Shown here piece after piece: positions 3,932-17,755 of a stretch of 20,177 nt of DNA (position 1 is its first letter; the number at the start of each line of letters is the position of its first letter). The notes beneath the pieces were generated by a model. It was not told where the DNA came from and searched no databases. It saw nothing but the letters and a program-made list of their open reading frames with translations. The position numbers were made by a program, and so were the translations under genes. The stretch is from a virus. The DNA lies in the IMG/VR virus record IMGVR_UViG_3300042375_000551, positions 1 to 20,177 of that record. The stretch is one strand, 5' to 3'.

Positions 3932-4530
3932 ACCTTTCACCTCGCGGCATCAAAGCGATCATCACTTGGGAAACGGGCGGAGAAAAATACTACGACCGCA
4001 ACCCAGAATGGCCCGGTGAGCAGTCCGGGATCACCATCGGGGTGGGCTGGGATCTGGGACACACTTCAGCGACCGAAACTTCCCGAGCGTGGGCGCCACA
4101 CCTCGACGCTGCCACGCTGGCTTTGCTCGTCTCGGTATCGGGCAGAAAGGGCACAGACGCGCAGCAGGTGCTTCCGCACGTGCGGCACCTAAATGTGCCG
4201 TGGACTGCGGCAATGGCGGTTTTTGAGAAAGTCACCCTGCCCACTTGGTACATGCGGACGCTTCGCATTTATCCGCAAATGGTTGACCTTCAAGGCGATT
4301 GCGCGGCTGCTTTGGTTTCGCTTGTTTTCAACCGGGGCGCCAGCCTGTCTGGTGATAGGCGCAAGGAAATGGTTGAGATTCAATGGCTTCTCCGAACCGG
4401 AGAGCTTGCAGGAATCCCTGGCGCATTCCGACAGATGACCAGACTTTGGCCTAACTCTGTCGGGCTGCGCAGGAGACGGAACGAGGAAGCTGACTTATTT
4501 GCAGCCGGGCTCGTTCCTGTAAGGGACTAA
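3928..4530 (+). CDS. Endolysin, pesticin C-terminal/T4-lysozyme-like muramidase
   Basis: The likely start is ATG 3928, overlapping the upstream stop as ATGA and giving 200 residues. A longer in-frame start at 3847 would run through the previous gene. The N-terminal half carries the muramidase signature: E15 in WETGG, then WPG, then T36 and D42 in TIGVGWDLG. The six-residue T-to-D spacing and the GxGxDLG context match the Glu-Thr-Asp catalytic set of pesticin-type muramidases, which cut peptidoglycan glycan strands. A typical phage-lysozyme helix (CAALVSLVFNRG) follows near residues 130-142. No signal peptide is evident, so release through the upstream holin is expected. Confidence 0.8.
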   Translation: MNLSPRGIKAIITWETGGEKYYDRNPEWPGEQSGITIGVGWDLGHTSATETSRAWAPHLDAATLALLVSVSGRKGTDAQQVLPHVRHLNVPWTAAMAVFEKVTLPTWYMRTLRIYPQMVDLQGDCAAALVSLVFNRGASLSGDRRKEMVEIQWLLRTGELAGIPGAFRQMTRLWPNSVGLRRRRNEEADLFAAGLVPVRD

Positions 4531-4901: not shown

Positions 4902-4929
4902 TTTACAAACTAGCGAGCCGGGGTAGGGT
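4902..4929 (+). promoter_or_regulatory. Putative promoter A, near-leaderless, for DUF3310 gene
   Basis: TTTACA (4902-4907) and TAGGGT (4924-4929) are separated by 16 bases. The -10-like box ends six bases before the ATG at 4936, so transcription would begin at or next to the start codon. No Shine-Dalgarno is present. The same geometry recurs before 5330, 6399, 6706 and 17255. Confidence 0.45.
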
Positions 4930-4935
4930 AGTGGC

Positions 4936-5136
4936 ATGGACCCAGTCGAGAACCCGCCTCACTACACACAGCACCCTTCCGGGGTGGAGTGCATCCGAAT
5001 CGCAGAATGCTTTTCGTTTTCTATCGGCAACGCCATCAAGTACTTATGGCGGGCCGGGCTGAAGGGCGACGCAATTGAAGACCTACGGAAGGCTGCTTGG
5101 TATATCAACAACGAAATCAACAGGTTAAGCAAATGA
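4936..5136 (+). CDS. DUF3310 family protein (T7 gp1.7-like)
   Basis: The protein has 66 residues. The core NPPHYTQHPSGVECI ... GNAIKYLWRAGLKGDAIEDLRKAAWY is the hallmark pattern of DUF3310: an N-terminal PxHY, then the helix motif GNAxKYxxRxGxKxD, then a Lys/Ala-rich helix. Family members are small early phage proteins, and T7 gp1.7, a nucleotide kinase, belongs to the same group. A role in nucleotide metabolism is therefore plausible, but this short copy is only the core domain and catalysis is not demonstrated. It opens the early rightward gene set. Confidence 0.85.
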   Translation: MDPVENPPHYTQHPSGVECIRIAECFSFSIGNAIKYLWRAGLKGDAIEDLRKAAWYINNEINRLSK

Positions 5137-5297
5137 TCACACTACAAGAACACTGCCAGAGAATCGCCAAGCTCGGAGGAGCAAAGAAGTCTGAAAAAAA
5201 AGCAGCTGCGGCACGGGAGAACGCTCGCAAGCCGCGCCCTAAAGCGCGTGAACTCAACGCCTTAAAGAGGGCGAAAAATAATTTACAAAAAAGCTAG
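5133..5297 (+). CDS. Small Lys/Arg/Ala-rich hypothetical protein
   Basis: From ATG 5133, which overlaps the DUF3310 stop as ATGA, 54 residues are encoded. The sequence has an N-terminal helix (MITLQEHCQRIAKLGG) and then a very basic region with the pattern KKSEKKAAAARENARKPRP, a style seen in small phage and plasmid proteins that may bind nucleic acid. No enzyme motif is present. It is probably translated by coupling to the upstream gene. The in-frame start at 5097 lies inside the upstream gene and was rejected. Function unknown. Confidence 0.6.
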   Translation: MITLQEHCQRIAKLGGAKKSEKKAAAARENARKPRPKARELNALKRAKNNLQKS

Positions 5298-5322
5298 CCA
5301 AGCGTGATTGGGTGGCTATAGT
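5291..5322 (+). promoter_or_regulatory. Putative promoter B, leaderless, for the gene at 5330
   Basis: An upstream box AAGCTAGCCAAGCG begins at 5291 and TATAGT occupies 5317-5322. Seven bases then separate it from the ATG, so the first transcribed base would be the A of ATG. The upstream box begins exactly 39 bases before the ATG, as in the copies at 6360 and 6667. Confidence 0.5.
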
Positions 5323-5329
5323 TGGGCCC

Positions 5330-5506
5330 ATGAAAGCAACCCCAATCGGAATGATCGAACTCGGAGCAAAAGTGTACGTCAAACCTGTAAACGCTTTTGG
5401 AGTTGTTGAAGACAACACAAACGGCAATTACCTAGTAGTTTTCGGCTCCGATTCTCTGGATGAGATTTTTGGAATCTACGAACGAAACGACCTTCGCTGC
5501 TACTAG
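5330..5506 (+). CDS. Small hypothetical protein, SH3/KOW-like beta pattern
   Basis: The protein has 58 residues and starts at ATG 5330. An in-frame GTG at 5312 would overlap the promoter-like box and was rejected. The sequence alternates short beta-strand-like pieces with turns (IELGAKVYV, FGVVEDNTNGNYLVVFG, IFGIYERNDLR), resembling a small barrel of SH3 or KOW type. That is an impression of pattern only. No Shine-Dalgarno precedes it; expression from leaderless promoter B is inferred. Function unknown. Confidence 0.6.
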   Translation: MKATPIGMIELGAKVYVKPVNAFGVVEDNTNGNYLVVFGSDSLDEIFGIYERNDLRCY

Positions 5507-5512
5507 GCCGAA

Positions 5513-5561
5513 ACGCCCCCCGGGGCGTCCACCCGTGACGCGGGTGCTGACGAGGCCGTCA
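5513..5561 (+). ncRNA. Three consecutive hairpins, structured leader or intergenic RNA
   Basis: Three stems follow one another: ACGCCCC/GGGGCGT (5513-5519 with 5522-5528), CACCCG/CGGGTG (5530-5535 with 5541-5546) and TGAC/GTCA (5548-5551 with 5558-5561). There is no T-run, so simple termination is unlikely. The array sits between the gene ending at 5506 and the conserved A/C-rich leader of the gene at 5589. Confidence 0.45.
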
Positions 5562-5563
5562 GA

Positions 5564-5593
5564 GTGAAACAACAAACCAAGAACCAAAATGAA
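5564..5593 (+). promoter_or_regulatory. Repeated A/C-rich translation leader, copy 1
   Basis: The 25 bases before the ATG at 5589 end in CAAACCAAGAACCAAA. Bases 6908-6937 match this 30-base stretch except at about three positions, with the same distance to the ATG. No Shine-Dalgarno is present. An A-rich initiation enhancer is the likely role. Confidence 0.5.
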
Positions 5594-5771
5594 CGCAACC
5601 GACCTAGCTGATTTGATTGGAGACCTGCTCCTCACAGAAACTACCCATAGCGACTCCATTTCGAGCGTCAGAACCTACGCAGATGCAGGCATCCTGACAA
5701 CCGACGACGGGCTGGTCGTCACCACCACCCGCGGCGTCGAATTCCAGATCACCATCAAGCGCTCCCGCTAA
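5589..5771 (+). CDS. Hypothetical protein, 60 residues
   Basis: This is a small acidic-to-neutral protein with an N-terminal helix (MNATDLADLIGDLLL) and a C-terminal beta pattern (DDGLVVTTTRGVEFQITIKRSR). It has the feel of a small phage accessory protein that could form a dimer, but no family is recognised. Its start is fixed by the conserved A/C-rich leader shared with the gene at 6933. It shares one base with the next gene (TAATG). Function unknown. Confidence 0.55.
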   Translation: MNATDLADLIGDLLLTETTHSDSISSVRTYADAGILTTDDGLVVTTTRGVEFQITIKRSR

Positions 5772-6028
5772 TGAAAACCTGCCAGCAAATACGCGCCGAC
5801 CTGCAAGTGCACCTCGAGCGCTTAATCGAACTCGACGAAGTCGCTAACGGAGCCATTAGCCATTTTGGGCAGTGCGACTCAGATCTGGATGCGTGGGACG
5901 CCCCTACACTCTGGATCGAAATTTGGAGGGGGTACCACTGGTCCACCCCGGAAGGCTTGCTGGAAGTCTCTGAAGGGGATGGCGAAAGCGGGAAGGTGTT
6001 CGGCTATCAACTCATCAACGTAAAATGA
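5771..6028 (+). CDS. Hypothetical protein, 85 residues
   Basis: The ATG shares one base with the upstream stop, pointing to coupled translation. The first 40 residues form a likely helix (CQQIRADLQVHLERLIELDEVANG). The rest is Trp-rich and probably beta (LWIEIWRGYHW, then GKVFGYQLINVK). The composition is protein-like with no membrane segment and no nuclease or helicase motif. The next gene overlaps its stop by four bases. Function unknown. Confidence 0.55.
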   Translation: MKTCQQIRADLQVHLERLIELDEVANGAISHFGQCDSDLDAWDAPTLWIEIWRGYHWSTPEGLLEVSEGDGESGKVFGYQLINVK

Positions 6029-6354
6029 CCAAGGCTCAAGAACTTCTCGCATGGGAGGCTTTTTATCACTCCCTTCCCTCGGATTCGTATTCAAAAGGAG
6101 CGCTTCCTTCTTTGTTGCTGGAACTCGAATGCGCCTTGCGTTCCGACTTTCTGCCGACCCTTTCTTTGGCCGATGCAAACGCGGCCGCTGTGAAAGTACT
6201 GCTCGAAGCGCAAGAGGCTTCAAAGCGGCTCCTCGTGGCAGCAACAGGGCAAAGCGACGCAATGCTTAAGGAGGCAAACAAGAAGGCAGAAAGAATGGCA
6301 GAGCAAATGGAGGCATGGAAGGCTTCCGCAATTCGGCAAATCGAAAAAATATGA
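6025..6354 (+). CDS. Hypothetical helical protein, 109 residues
   Basis: The start ATG overlaps the upstream stop as ATGA. Residues 40-109 are rich in Ala, Glu, Lys and Met and look like a long coiled-coil helix (AAAVKVLLEAQEASKRLL ... KEANKKAERMAEQMEAW). The first 40 residues are more mixed (LLAWEAFYHSLPSDSY). No catalytic motif is visible. The stop overlaps an ATG at 6351 in the frame of the next gene. Function unknown. Confidence 0.55.
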   Translation: MTKAQELLAWEAFYHSLPSDSYSKGALPSLLLELECALRSDFLPTLSLADANAAAVKVLLEAQEASKRLLVAATGQSDAMLKEANKKAERMAEQMEAWKASAIRQIEKI

Positions 6355-6614
6355 AAACAAAGCTTCCCCGCCGTGGTTTGCTAGCTACAGTTGCGCACAT
6401 GAAAGAAAACACCGCAGCACTGCTCAAGAAAATCGCAACCGAACTTACCGAAGGCGGCGTGCCAATCGAAAAGGCAAAGATGGTCGCAACTTCGGTTGTG
6501 ATTAAGGGGTTGATGGAGGCTGGCATGGATATGAAAGACGCTTACGAAATGTGCTTCGGCGCTGGGCACTGGGAGGCAATGCTCAGCCACATCGAAAAAA
6601 ATCTGGCAGCTTAA
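6351..6614 (+). CDS. Hypothetical protein with two plausible starts (6351 and 6399)
   Basis: ATG 6351 overlaps the upstream stop as ATGA and gives 87 residues; ATG 6399 gives 71. The segment between them (KTKLPRRGLLATVAH) is also the DNA of promoter-like box C, whose -10 box ends seven bases before ATG 6399. The short form (MKENTAALLKKIATELTEGG...) looks like the natural protein: an Ala/Lys/Glu helix, a turn, and a second helix with Met and Asp (GLMEAGMDMKDAYEMCFG). A read-through mRNA could still make the long form. A strong terminator follows the gene. No family is recognised. Confidence 0.6.
   Translation: MKTKLPRRGLLATVAHMKENTAALLKKIATELTEGGVPIEKAKMVATSVVIKGLMEAGMDMKDAYEMCFGAGHWEAMLSHIEKNLAA
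6360..6391 (+). promoter_or_regulatory. Putative promoter C, leaderless, for start at 6399
   Basis: AAGCTTCCCCGCCG begins at 6360 and TACAGT lies at 6386-6391, seven bases before the ATG at 6399. The distance from box start to ATG is 39 bases, as in the copies at 5291 and 6667. The element lies within the coding frame that opens at 6351. Confidence 0.5.
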
Positions 6615-6622
6615 GCTGAAAC

Positions 6623-6644
6623 GCCCTCTTCGGGGGGCTTTTTT
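6623..6644 (+). terminator. Rho-independent terminator with UUCG loop
   Basis: The six-pair stem GCCCTC (6623-6628) with GGGGGC (6633-6638), including one wobble, closes a TTCG tetraloop and is followed by six T (6639-6644). This is a classic intrinsic terminator and ends the gene set that stops at 6614. Confidence 0.85.
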
Positions 6645-6666
6645 CCTTCTAAAAAACCTCAAAATA

Positions 6667-6699
6667 AAGCTTCCCAAGCGCGCTTCGCTAACCCATATT
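6667..6699 (+). promoter_or_regulatory. Putative promoter D for the gene at 6706
   Basis: AAGCTTCCCAAGCG begins at 6667, exactly 39 bases before the ATG at 6706. CATATT (6694-6699) lies six bases before the ATG, though it is a poorer -10 match than the other copies. It stands directly after the strong terminator at 6623, where a new promoter is needed. Confidence 0.5.
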
Positions 6700-6705
6700 C
6701 CCGCC

Positions 6706-6864
6706 ATGAAAACGAACCGTACAATCAACACCGGAAACAACGAAACGCTGTGCAAAGGAATTTTTCCGCAGGCTGACGGAACCTTTTTGGCTCTTACCTT
6801 CAGCGTTTCCAAGACCTTTAAGACGCTGGTTGGGGCTCAAAAGTGGATGGCGCGCCGCGCTTAA
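6706..6864 (+). CDS. Small hypothetical protein, 52 residues
   Basis: The frame encodes MKTNRTINTGNNETLCKGIF, then PQADGTFLALTFSVSKTFK, then TLVGAQKWMARRA before TAA at 6862-6864. The pattern of beta-like pieces followed by a C-terminal basic helix (KTFKTLVGAQKWMARR) resembles small phage proteins found in early regions. It is the only frame with its start at promoter-like element D and it directly follows a terminator, both supporting a real gene. No known function. Confidence 0.6.
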   Translation: MKTNRTINTGNNETLCKGIFPQADGTFLALTFSVSKTFKTLVGAQKWMARRA

Positions 6865-6907: not shown

Positions 6908-6937
6908 GTTAAACTCCAAACCAAGAACCAAAATGAA
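6908..6937 (+). promoter_or_regulatory. Repeated A/C-rich translation leader, copy 2
   Basis: This stretch nearly duplicates bases 5564-5593 and sits at the same distance from its ATG (6933). A possible hairpin GTGCG/CGCAC lies upstream around 6875-6899, paralleling the hairpins before copy 1. Confidence 0.5.
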
Positions 6938-7349: not shown

Positions 7350-7915
7350 ATATGATGAACGGGGCGGCTTATTATAGCCCGCCAAACCGCCACCAAAAGT
7401 GCTTCGGCAGCATGCTAGGGGCGCCTGCCGAAGCCACAAACAAGCCTGACCTGTCAGAGTTCCCAAGCCTTGTCGAACAAGCTGTGCGCGCCGGGTTAAT
7501 CCAGCGAGCAACGGTGGAGGCGGTCCTTGAGCAAAAAGCACGCCTGCTAAAAAGCGCTTGGCAGGTTGCAAACTGCAGGGCCTGCGGCATTCGATTTGAG
7601 CGCGGCAGGCGCTCGCTTCTTGATTGTGACAGGTGCCGGATCCCAACACGGAACTGTGGGGGATGCGGCAAAGAGTTTCGCCCACCGGATCGAAAGAAAT
7701 TCTGCTGCTCCAAAGACTGCTCCCGCGTAATGCAGGTGCGGAACTTCAAAGCCAACTACGTTTCGGCCGCGAAGACGCTCGTGCAGTGCGTAGTTTGCCG
7801 AGAATACAAGCCTGCCCGGCAAGCGGGAAGCGCGGTTGCAAAGACCTGCAGCCCGACTTGCGCAGACACCTACAGAGCCAACCTCAACCAGCTTAGAACC
7901 AAACCCAAAAAATGA
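7346..7915 (+). CDS. Triple zinc-binding-motif protein
   Basis: The ATG overlaps the upstream stop as ATGA; 189 residues. An N-terminal helical part (residues 1-75, including EFPSLVEQAVRAGLIQRATVEAVLEQ) precedes three cysteine clusters. These are C77-x2-C80 with C94-x2-C97, C104-x2-C107 with C121-x3-C125, and C148-x2-C151 with C168-x3-C172. The second and third have the CxxC...CSxxC form of treble-clef fingers. The tail is basic. Such arrays usually bind DNA or RNA or bridge proteins. The gene stands directly before the exonuclease/RecT-like module and overlaps the exonuclease start by four bases, so a recombination or regulatory role is likely. No named family is recognised. Confidence 0.7.
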   Translation: MNMMNGAAYYSPPNRHQKCFGSMLGAPAEATNKPDLSEFPSLVEQAVRAGLIQRATVEAVLEQKARLLKSAWQVANCRACGIRFERGRRSLLDCDRCRIPTRNCGGCGKEFRPPDRKKFCCSKDCSRVMQVRNFKANYVSAAKTLVQCVVCREYKPARQAGSAVAKTCSPTCADTYRANLNQLRTKPKK

Positions 7916-8904
7916 ATATCCGACACTCATCACTCCCTAAGCTCGCGCTCTGCGGGCAGTACGAAGGCACCAGCGGCGCCGCCTCCGAGGCAGCAGCCCG
8001 CGGCACGAAACTCGACACCGCGTTCCGCCACGCGTGGGAGCACGGCGAGTTTCCAGATTGGGAACTTTCCGAGGAGGACGCGCAGGCGATCCGGTGGACC
8101 ATCAACCAGTGCCTGATTATAGGCAACAACAACGCGTGGCTCACAACCCGAGAGGAGGAGTGCCGGACTAAGAATACCCTCATGGACCACGTGGGCACCG
8201 CGGACGGGGTATCAGTCAAGCAGGCCTTCCATATCGACCTGAAAAGCGGTCAAATTTACAATTACGAAGCGCAGATGGCAGCGTATGCCCTAGGCTTTAT
8301 GGAGGAGAACTTTGAGGTTGAATGGACTGCACACCTGTTGTTTTGCGACCAAAGGAAGGTTATCACGCATCACTTCACCTACGACTCCGCAAAGGCGATC
8401 GTGGCTGGGGTGCTTCGGAATATCGGGACGGCCCCGAAACAGAACGATTACTGCGGGTGGTGCGCTAAAAGCCTGACCTGCGTCGGCAGGGTAGAATCTA
8501 CCCTGATTGCATTGCAGCCCGTTGAAAGGGGAATTGCGGTCACGAGCGAGGCTTTTTTGGACGTACTCAACGACCCCATTCAACTCGGGAAGTTTCTTGC
8601 GGCTTGTTCTACCCTCGACGACTTCCGCGAGGCTGCCAAAAATAAGGCACGGGAACTCCTCGATGCTGGGCAGGCGGTTCCGGGCTGGAAACTGCAGAAG
8701 CCGCGAGCCTCCGCTTACGTCGAGGCGGACGTGATCGCACGGGCAGTGGAGGAGGGGCTGATCGGCGCAGGCGACGCAATCCGAGCGGGCGGGAGCCTGA
8801 GCGGGAAAAAGGCCGAAGCTCTGTGGAGCGCGGCCGGGCACGAACTTCCGGAACACGTCGTGCAGCAGAAAATTGGGCAAGCTCCTTTGGTACAGGCCAA
8901 ATAA
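7912..8904 (+). CDS. PD-(D/E)XK exonuclease, DUF2800-like, with four-cysteine cluster
   Basis: The 330-residue protein has the RecB/Cas4-type nuclease motifs in order: GTKLD near residue 31, D98 in GTADG, D109-L-K111 in HIDLKSG, and Q121-x3-Y125 in the QxxxY helix. C14 together with C181-x2-C184-x5-C190 has the one-plus-three spacing of iron-sulfur nucleases in this superfamily. The N-terminal pattern (SSLPKLALCGQYEG...ASEAAARGTKLD) fits phage DUF2800 exonucleases. It probably chews one strand of linear DNA to expose ssDNA for the RecT-like protein encoded next. The usual His of motif I (GTxxH) is replaced here by Asp. The function is inferred from motifs plus context. Confidence 0.8.
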   Translation: MNIRHSSLPKLALCGQYEGTSGAASEAAARGTKLDTAFRHAWEHGEFPDWELSEEDAQAIRWTINQCLIIGNNNAWLTTREEECRTKNTLMDHVGTADGVSVKQAFHIDLKSGQIYNYEAQMAAYALGFMEENFEVEWTAHLLFCDQRKVITHHFTYDSAKAIVAGVLRNIGTAPKQNDYCGWCAKSLTCVGRVESTLIALQPVERGIAVTSEAFLDVLNDPIQLGKFLAACSTLDDFREAAKNKARELLDAGQAVPGWKLQKPRASAYVEADVIARAVEEGLIGAGDAIRAGGSLSGKKAEALWSAAGHELPEHVVQQKIGQAPLVQAK

Positions 8905-8954: not shown

Positions 8955-9632
8955 ATGTCAGACATGCAACTCATTCCCTTTGGGGAACTTCAGGCGATGG
9001 CTACGGTCATCGCAAAGGCAGGAAGCTTCGGCTTCAAAACGATGGAACAAGCCGCGGCGCTCATGCTTGTGGCTCAGGCAGACGGGCTCCACCCAGCTAA
9101 GGCGGCGACCCATTATCACATAATTAATGGCAAGCCCAGCCTTACGGCGGACGCCATGCTGGCGCGTTTTCAAAGCGCGGGAGGAAGGGTCAACTGGGAC
9201 ATGTACGGGGACGGGGTCGTCACCGGCACGTTCAGCCATCCGAAGGGCGGGAGCGTCACGATCACGTGGACCTATGAGCGCGCAAAGAAAGCCGGGGTTG
9301 GCAACCTCGAGAAGTTTCCGGCAGCGATGCTTCGCGCCCGGTGCATTTCGGAAGGAGTGCGGACGGTCTACCCCGGCGTGATTGTCGGCATGTACACGCC
9401 CGACGAGATCAGCACGTTCCACGTTGAGGCACAGCAGCCGATTCAGATTCAGGCTTCCCCGCAAACCATTGACGTCGAACCTGTGCCAGAGGTTCCGTCC
9501 GTGATCGCTAGCGCAAAGAATATGCAGGAACTCGTGGAGGCTTTTCAGTACGCGACTCGCGGCTGGGACTCCTCAACTGAGTATTACAAAGCGTGCCAAG
9601 CAGCAGCAACCGAAAGAAAAGCCTCCCTATGA
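8955..9632 (+). CDS. RecT-like single-strand annealing protein
   Basis: The 225-residue protein shows the phage annealing-protein pattern: an N-terminal helix pair (MATVIAKAGSFGFKTMEQAAALMLVAQ), then DGLHPAKAATHYHIINGKPSLTADAMLARFQSAGG, and later EKFPAAMLRARCISEGVRTVYPGVIVGMYTPDE. The GKPxLxADxML and AMLRAR...EGxRxxxPxxxxGxYTPDE blocks are typical of RecT-type recombinases. Residues 165-200 form a Pro/Val-rich linker and the end is a separate small helical part. Its role would be annealing complementary ssDNA produced by the upstream exonuclease. The start follows a conserved hairpin leader and has no Shine-Dalgarno. Confidence 0.75.
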   Translation: MSDMQLIPFGELQAMATVIAKAGSFGFKTMEQAAALMLVAQADGLHPAKAATHYHIINGKPSLTADAMLARFQSAGGRVNWDMYGDGVVTGTFSHPKGGSVTITWTYERAKKAGVGNLEKFPAAMLRARCISEGVRTVYPGVIVGMYTPDEISTFHVEAQQPIQIQASPQTIDVEPVPEVPSVIASAKNMQELVEAFQYATRGWDSSTEYYKACQAAATERKASL

Positions 9633-14400: not shown

Positions 14401-14601
14401 GTTTCTTTCCTAAGTAGTTCAAATGCAAGCATGTTACCCTGTTACTGATAGTATTCCCTTTAATAAAGTATAAAATAGAATATAGGCGTGATGCGCGCGA
14501 GGAGCGTACGCGTGGCGCCTATAGAAAACGCGTTGTTTCCGGAAACTAAGGAAACACGAGAAACGCTAAAGAACCTGAACCCAGTCGCCGAACTAAGAAT
14601 T
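14401..14601. other. AT-rich, repeat-bearing intergenic region, origin candidate
   Basis: A 70-base AT-rich tract (about 14415-14485) is followed by a 12-bp palindrome GTTTCCGGAAAC (14535-14546). Three GAAAC direct repeats follow at exactly nine-base spacing (14542, 14551, 14560). The location directly after the primase-helicase gene fits a replication origin with an unwinding element and iterons. An operator for the next gene set is the alternative. Confidence 0.4.
14453..14481 (+). promoter_or_regulatory. Putative promoter E
   Basis: ATTCCC (14453-14458) and TAGAAT (14476-14481) are separated by 17 bases, and a GTG at 14488 lies six bases after the second box. The CCC-containing upstream box is at almost the same distance as in copies C and D. 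If this promoter is leaderless, the gene below starts at 14488 rather than 14602. Confidence 0.4.
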
Positions 14602-17202: not shown

Positions 17203-17246
17203 ACCAGACTGGTAGGGTATTGACCGGCAATATCTGCCGGTATACT
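17203..17246 (+). promoter_or_regulatory. Promoter F with operator-like inverted repeats for packaging operon
   Basis: TTGACC (17220-17225) and TATACT (17241-17246) are -35 and -10-like boxes with 15 bases between. The spacer is largely the inverted repeat CCGGCA/TGCCGG (17224-17229, 17235-17240), and a second one, ACCAG/CTGGT, lies at 17203-17213. A repressor bound there would block the promoter. The GTG start of the small terminase gene lies only eight bases past the -10 box. Confidence 0.6.
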
Positions 17247-17254
17247 ACTGCGTT

Positions 17255-17755
17255 GTGGCAAATCAGAATAAAGGCTCATCGTATTCCAAAGTCGCCAAAC
17301 ATTTTGGCGTAAGCGCTTCCTCTGTGCAGTTTTGGGAAAAGCACGGCTTTGACAGGGACTGGTCTACGGAAGAGCAAGAAGCGTGGCGCAAGACCTATAC
17401 GAAAGACCGCATCATAGAGCCTCCATTGCGCAGGAAGAAGCTGGAGTCACTTAGCCCGGCAACTACTGCCGAGCCGGTGCTCGACTACAAAGAGGCACGG
17501 ACGCAAAAGCTGGCGAAGGAGATCGAACGCCTCTCTATCATCATCGGCCGCGAGAAAGGCGAACTGGTGCCCGCCGCTGACATGCGAGAGACCGCGACGC
17601 GGGTAGTCTCTGTCTGGTGCTCTGAACTGGACGCACTGGTGGGGGATCTCCCTGGGCAGTTGGCGGGACTGACCGAGGCCGAGATCCAGCCAAAGCTGCG
17701 AAGCCGCATCGAGCTGCTCAAAGCCAACGCACGGGAGGGCTTTTCCAATTTGTGA
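17255..17755 (+). CDS. Terminase small subunit, Nu1-like
   Basis: The protein has 166 residues with a GTG start. The N-terminus carries a helix-turn-helix (SYSKVAKHFGVSASSVQFWEKHGFD). A central coiled-coil and linker region follows (DYKEARTQKLAKEIERLSIIIGREKGELVPAADMRE), then a helical C-terminal part that should contact the large subunit. The REKGELVP motif after the coiled coil is typical of Nu1-type small terminases. It recognises the packaging site on concatemeric DNA. The gene ends four bases inside the large-subunit start. Confidence 0.8.
   Translation: MANQNKGSSYSKVAKHFGVSASSVQFWEKHGFDRDWSTEEQEAWRKTYTKDRIIEPPLRRKKLESLSPATTAEPVLDYKEARTQKLAKEIERLSIIIGREKGELVPAADMRETATRVVSVWCSELDALVGDLPGQLAGLTEAEIQPKLRSRIELLKANAREGFSNL

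Follow-up and report, generated by a model that had tools for sequence, protein, structure and literature searches.

Leaderless genes in which a TANNNT box lies about 12 base pairs (bp) before the start are found in several bacterial phyla (Zheng et al. 2011, PMC3160421; Deinococcus-Thermus, PMC12340547), and type II hammerhead ribozymes, with a pseudoknot between loop I and the tail, occur in bacteria and phages (Perreault et al. 2011, PMC3088659). Here we describe a locus of the virus record IMGVR_UViG_3300042375_000551, which has 20,177 bases and carries no host label; the whole stretch was analysed and is called the window. At this locus a promoter (S1, 5291-5329) ends at the start codon of a small gene (5330-5506), the stop codon of which is fused to a predicted type II hammerhead ribozyme (5506-5564), all features given here being on the + strand. 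The best explanation of the whole, to which we assign a probability of about 0.78, is a sigma-70-type leaderless promoter followed by an exchangeable cargo gene and a stop-fused ribozyme.

The promoters of this locus resemble the leaderless bacterial genes (PMC3160421, PMC12340547) in the short, constant distance between the -10 box and the start codon and in the lack of a Shine-Dalgarno sequence, whereas they differ in belonging to a phage and in having a -35-like element, exactly 16 bp away, together with a palindrome that overlaps the promoter. The ribozyme shares with RF02276 (PMC3088659) the core, the permuted type II layout, the GUC cut site and the location in phages, but here its site is constant: it is joined to the stop codon of a variable gene that follows a leaderless promoter. 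It keeps the published pseudoknot in part. For the combination of a leaderless promoter with a stop-codon ribozyme, no description was found in the literature searched, the coverage of which excluded subscription journals. An analogy is offered by the PeSL cassettes of T4-type phages, reportedly described by Arbiol et al. in 2010, in which modules of promoter and RNA hairpin are said to lie on either side of variable early genes and presumably help in their shuffling. Compared with these cassettes, the 3′ module is here a self-cleaving ribozyme that overlaps the stop codon, and the start codon forms part of the 5′ module; the likeness is one of analogy only, as no relationship to T4 was seen and no T4 comparison was run.

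The gene slot and its borders

The locus was compared in 29 phages, a first set of relatives that was enlarged through a ribozyme scan of viral contigs. All relatives are uncultured phages from metagenomes (the compared contigs carry labels such as L089, L105 or L168), and several near-identical contigs were collapsed by exact context only. The gene order, mapped in 15 phages, runs from conserved genes through S1 or its counterpart, the small gene and the ribozyme to a stretch of no, one or several variable genes, and then to conserved genes again; L113 carries two small genes in tandem in the slot. In the window, the gene in the slot encodes 58 amino acids and ends with a TAG that shares its G with the ribozyme, an arrangement in which this G is the first ribozyme base and which recurs in 25 of the 29 phages, while in L219 the ribozyme lies 344 nucleotides (nt) farther downstream of the S1 gene.

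The S1 genes of the 29 phages fall into 19 families with no similarity between families by BLASTP at E 1e-3, a search that could miss distant homology between proteins as short as these. A homologue of the 58-amino-acid gene of the window occupies the slot in L164 only, and this gene matched nothing in Pfam or PHROG; such searches gave no function for the other cargo genes tested either, the gene at 6706 (below) excepted.

In pairwise alignments, homology is lost near the ATG and comes back no more than a few nt from the ribozyme. Phages that carry non-homologous cargo are 75% identical in the promoter, 83% identical over the first 12 coding nt and 30% identical from there to the stop; the 100% identity of the first nine bases of the ribozyme is an artefact of the search pattern and does not count as evidence. 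L168 and L177, which have different cargo, are 98% identical downstream, beginning 2 bases before the ribozyme, and L177 and L208 are 94% identical upstream, the similarity extending 18 bases beyond the ATG. The first codons of the cargo are usually ATGACAACGAAC or ATGAAAGCAACC, and this A/C-rich stretch could aid leaderless initiation or could simply be the recombination border. We read the slot as an exchangeable cargo site, with a 5′ border that reaches from the promoter through the ATG to the fourth codon and a 3′ border made up of the TAG and the ribozyme.

The hammerhead ribozyme

The ribozyme of the window scores 39.4 bits (E 5.1e-5) with the Rfam model, the gathering threshold of which is 37 bits, and 87 bits with a model built from the copies of the group, the window copy included. 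Further Rfam matches are found in L089 (two), L102, L106 and L091. Over 620 kb, the group-built model matches only at the cargo-gene junction, once per phage and twice in L089, where the ribozymes at 4137-4194 and 4428-4485 belong to two consecutive gene-ribozyme units. Stem I covaries: in an alignment of 17 copies, 97% of cells are paired while both sides change, and the covariation score was reached by none of 500 shuffles; slid controls were far lower as well. Stem II is invariant and therefore uninformative for covariation. The predicted cut lies after GUC, between 5529 and 5530, a position that we take from established knowledge of hammerheads.

Behind the ribozyme, a CA-rich leader without a Shine-Dalgarno sequence (5565-5588) precedes the gene at 5589, and a similar leader follows the ribozyme in relatives. 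A near-identical CA-rich leader, also without a Shine-Dalgarno sequence, stands at 6910-6932, before the gene at 6933 (CAAACCAAGAACCAAAATG for the pair). At least 120 stretches of viral contigs also contain hammerheads of this form; among the matches listed, many stand at gene ends, with a leader behind them that is CA-rich or has a Shine-Dalgarno sequence.

Both the tandem gene-ribozyme units of L089 and the presence of this ribozyme form in so many viral stretches would suit a ribozyme that is itself a mobile element, with hammerheads as the seeds at which genes insert, much as in cassette arrays, and the promoter as a bystander. However, every phage of the group except L089 has a single ribozyme at the junction, and the 5′ border of the slot is about as sharp as the 3′ border, which makes this explanation unlikely.

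Promoter geometry and probable leaderless transcription

An earlier note on this DNA had reported three copies of AAGCT[A/T][G/C]CC..GCG, each beginning 39 bases before a start codon. The portion AAGCT[A/T][G/C]CC indeed starts at 5291, 6360 and 6667, in each case exactly 39 nt 5′ of an ATG (5330, 6399 and 6706), but the copy at 6360 ends in ..CCG, so that the exact motif is present in two copies only. The boxes described in the same note are in place. S1 consists of a -35-like TAGCCA (5295-5300), a 16-bp spacer and TATAGT (5317-5322), which ends 7 nt before the ATG, and has orthologues in the 29 phages. S2 (6360-6398) has TTCCCC (6364-6369), 16 bp and TACAGT (6386-6391), again 7 nt before the ATG, and the third copy (S3, 6667-6705) has a poor -10, CATATT (6694-6699), which ends 6 nt before the ATG, together with a well-kept palindrome, CCAAGCGCGCTTCG. 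A similar layout is found at the promoter P4936 (4902-4935), which was also correctly noticed, with TTTACA (4902-4907), 16 bp, TAGGGT (4924-4929) and 6 nt before the ATG at 4936; its orthologues in most relatives have TAGACA or TTGACA, 16 bp, TANNNT, 5-7 nt and ATG. Inspection of the sequence bears out the absence of a Shine-Dalgarno sequence before 5330, 6399 and 6706, and such sequences are present at other genes of the same phage (15245, 15816, 16031 and 16216).

In the first set of relatives, a matrix that spans the motif and the -10 and leaves out the ATG (the S1 matrix) finds 16 S1-like sites, and at 12 of them an ATG stands at the identical position. S2 and S3 were part of its training and score 29.8 and 26.2 bits, respectively; S3 is a weak member of the family. 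The -10 slot reads TANNNT in 27 of 28 aligned S1-type sites. Matches to the motif in L097, L107-L112 and L114-L116 have no ATG in register and were set aside as chance, as was L099, where an ATG stands in register but the -10 is missing.

The gene upstream of S1 (5133-5297) has homologues in many contigs, with the same promoter directly 3′. Across the 29 phages, the comparison that the earlier note had named as able to refute its proposal, boxes and spacing are kept at the S1 orthologues: the ATG lies 7 nt past the -10 in 19 phages and 6 nt past it in two, and in the eight that lack an ATG there, a G takes the place of its first base and a leader of 23-38 nt, opening with this G, precedes the ATG. 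The +1 base is a purine throughout, in the start codon or in the leader. Since a purine is always there, and a G-leader substitutes for the ATG in eight phages, the S1 promoter seems to fix the RNA start at +1; of the arguments from sequence for such a start, this is the strongest.

The geometry was also examined at all predicted ATG starts of the group (n = 1,623), with -10-like boxes sorted by their distance to the ATG and -35-like boxes by their distance to the -10. At a spacer of 16 bp, 27 and 16 starts are found at offsets 6 and 7, respectively, where background cells have a mean of 0.28 and a maximum of 2, and 127 unrelated contigs used as a control have 0 and 1 starts in the same two cells. 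The gene calls follow a simple longest-open-reading-frame rule by which some starts are missed (e.g. 6399), and the 43 starts are not independent events, as they represent about four promoter families: S1, the 4936-type and two terminase-end clusters of relatives (TTGTTA, 16 bp, TATWTT). The proposal of leaderless transcripts, made in the earlier note, is favoured by the constant 6-7 nt from -10 to ATG in diverged sequences, by the -35-like element at 16 bp, by the purine at +1 and by the eight phages with a G-leader, and we consider leaderless transcription from S1-type promoters to be strongly supported by comparison.

Promoter type and putative operator

The features of sigma-70 promoters (a TTGACA-like -35, a spacer of 16-18 bp and TANNNT) are clear in P4936 and in the terminase-end promoters of relatives. 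The suggestion of the earlier note that a shared early sigma or phage factor reads the whole family does not hold up well, since the 4936-type promoters, with TTGACA, TAGACA or TTTACA, 16 bp and TANNNT, look like those of host sigma-70; with such hexamers a dedicated phage sigma factor is not needed.

A palindrome, CCAAGCGNGNTTGG, lies between the -35 and the -10 and is common to the early promoters, at a distance from the -10 that differs between the two promoter families. In S1 its centre falls between motif positions 14 and 15 (window 5304/5305), with a dyad score of 0.75 against a mean of 0.26, and the 4936-type promoters have the same CCAAGC..GCTTGG core closer to the -10. This suggests that the palindrome is a common, putative operator, and because it overlaps the polymerase site, the operator is probably that of a repressor.

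The palindrome also permits a different account, in which the repeats are repressor operators or other regulator sites, transcription starts farther upstream and the genes have leaders that lack a Shine-Dalgarno sequence. The strong dyad at positions 14/15 fits such sites, as does S3, which keeps the palindrome despite its poor -10. Against this, TANNNT stands at the -10 in all but one of the aligned sites and the distance from -10 to ATG is constant at 6-7 nt, and the 4936-type promoters keep the -35, 16 bp, -10, 5-7 nt and ATG even though the distance from palindrome to -10 differs. We regard such upstream starts as quite improbable. We would give equally little credence to the view that S1-S3 arose by recent duplication of a unit that included the ATG, the 39-nt spacing being simply inherited: the kinship of the three is plain, and L113 contains a second copy, but the spacing is kept while the 7-nt gap has diverged, and promoter families unrelated in sequence share the geometry. 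Common descent and functional constraint on the spacing are, in any case, compatible. That a phage-encoded sigma factor or activator reads the promoters, as their long shared block outside the core hexamers could indicate, is, as judged from the promoter sequences, similarly doubtful, because near-consensus TTGACA (4936-type) and TTGTTA (terminase end), both with 16 bp, point to a general sigma-70-type factor.

Neighbouring genes and a possible moved cassette

S2 precedes a putatively leaderless gene of 71 amino acids (6399-6614), homologues of which in L105 and L106 (86% and 48% identity, respectively) have the same Met start and lie in the S1 slot before an intact ribozyme. In the window the gene is followed by an intrinsic terminator (6615-6645; GCTGAAACGCCC...GGGGGGC and then a T run, with a terminator-like site at 6623). 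By eye, this terminator resembles the 5′ half of a hammerhead, as though a ribozyme had decayed into a terminator. The homologues in the S1 slot, the S2 promoter and the ribozyme-like terminator suggest that promoter, gene 6399 and ribozyme once moved as a unit.

The gene behind S3 (6706-6864, 52 amino acids) was assigned to DUF1391 (PF07151) and phrog_751 by Pfam and PHROG searches. A DUF2800 protein (7912-8904; Pfam E 9.6e-7), possibly a recombination exonuclease, is conserved downstream of the slot, and a RecT-family annealing protein is encoded at 8955-9632 (Pfam 24.2 bits, cut-off 24).

Two more genes that the earlier note had counted in the promoter family do not belong there. The gene at 14488 has a GTG start and no -35, and the N-terminus varies among homologues, which makes the start uncertain; the AT-rich sequence before it, TATAAAATAGAAT (14440-14490), recurs in L084 and L010 with TAGGAT. 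The GTG at 17255 is preceded by a separate terminase promoter (17220-17254) with TTGACC, 15 bp and TATACT (17241) 8 nt away, the TTGAC of which is largely conserved in about 25 orthologues, with a spacing unlike that of the early family. The spacer of this promoter contains an inverted repeat, CCGGCA/TGCCGG.

Relatives and host

The named phage with the nearest terminase is Verrucomicrobia phage P8625 (L117), at 24% identity. Several P8625 genes show, by eye, a comparable layout of TTGACA, 17 bp, a TAT-like box, about 7 nt and ATG without a Shine-Dalgarno sequence (5448, 10772, 15594 and 17541), but with a spacer of 17 and a GTATCC/GGATAC palindrome; P8625 gave no match to the S1 matrix or to the ribozyme model. 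As to the host of the window phage, a terminase scan of cellular genome contigs found no relative and a ribozyme-pattern scan of cellular genomes found no match, and a verrucomicrobial host is a guess.

Discussion

Sequence comparison shows the promoter anatomy and spacing, the conservation and covariation of the ribozyme, the unrelated cargo genes and the sharp borders. We infer the start of transcription, cleavage in vivo, the operator and the way in which cargo is exchanged. Host RNA polymerase, at the sigma-70-type S1 promoter, would begin with the first base of the cargo ATG and produce a leaderless messenger RNA (mRNA), on the 5′ AUG of which ribosomes would initiate. S1 would drive an early operon with the cargo as its first gene, subject to a putative repressor acting at the palindrome that overlaps the promoter. 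Cleavage by the ribozyme after GUC at 5529 would split the transcript into a short leaderless cargo mRNA, with a hairpin at the 3′ end, and a downstream operon mRNA that has its own hairpin at the 5′ end together with the CA-rich leader. Recombination between conserved borders, in which the RecT-family protein encoded downstream may take part, would swap the cargo. We lean, with some reserve, towards the more specific proposal of a nucleotide-precise exchange slot, in which a promoter fused to the start codon and a ribozyme fused to the stop codon would allow any small gene to be expressed as a self-contained mRNA, severed from the operon.

Several observations weigh against this combination of a sigma-70-type leaderless promoter, exchangeable cargo and stop-fused ribozyme. 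The use of host sigma-70 is an assumption; the -35 of S1, TAGCCA, is weak (4 of 6 consensus positions), and S3, without a good -10, falls outside the sigma-70 pattern. The same S1 promoter precedes a leader in 8 of the 29 phages, so the locus can do without leaderless translation. In the ribozyme, the pseudoknot between loop I and the tail has 69% of its cells paired, and the tail GUCAG can pair with the core CUGAC, which would compete with the active fold; because of this pairing, folding may be conditional. Most of the 29 phages were retrieved by S1 or ribozyme patterns, and the co-occurrence of S1 and ribozyme is thus partly a matter of ascertainment, a bias that is lessened but not abolished by the maps of 15 phages, which were anchored on the upstream gene.

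The role of phage hammerheads is largely open, and the exact, conserved position of this one at the stop of a variable gene, behind an apparently leaderless promoter, makes its role directly testable. The ribozyme may trim and stabilise the mRNAs of accessory genes, it may detach them from the replication operon, or it may act as the border for recombination. In addition, the slot provides a list of 19 or more families of small, uncharacterised early genes, which are candidates for host take-over or counter-defence.

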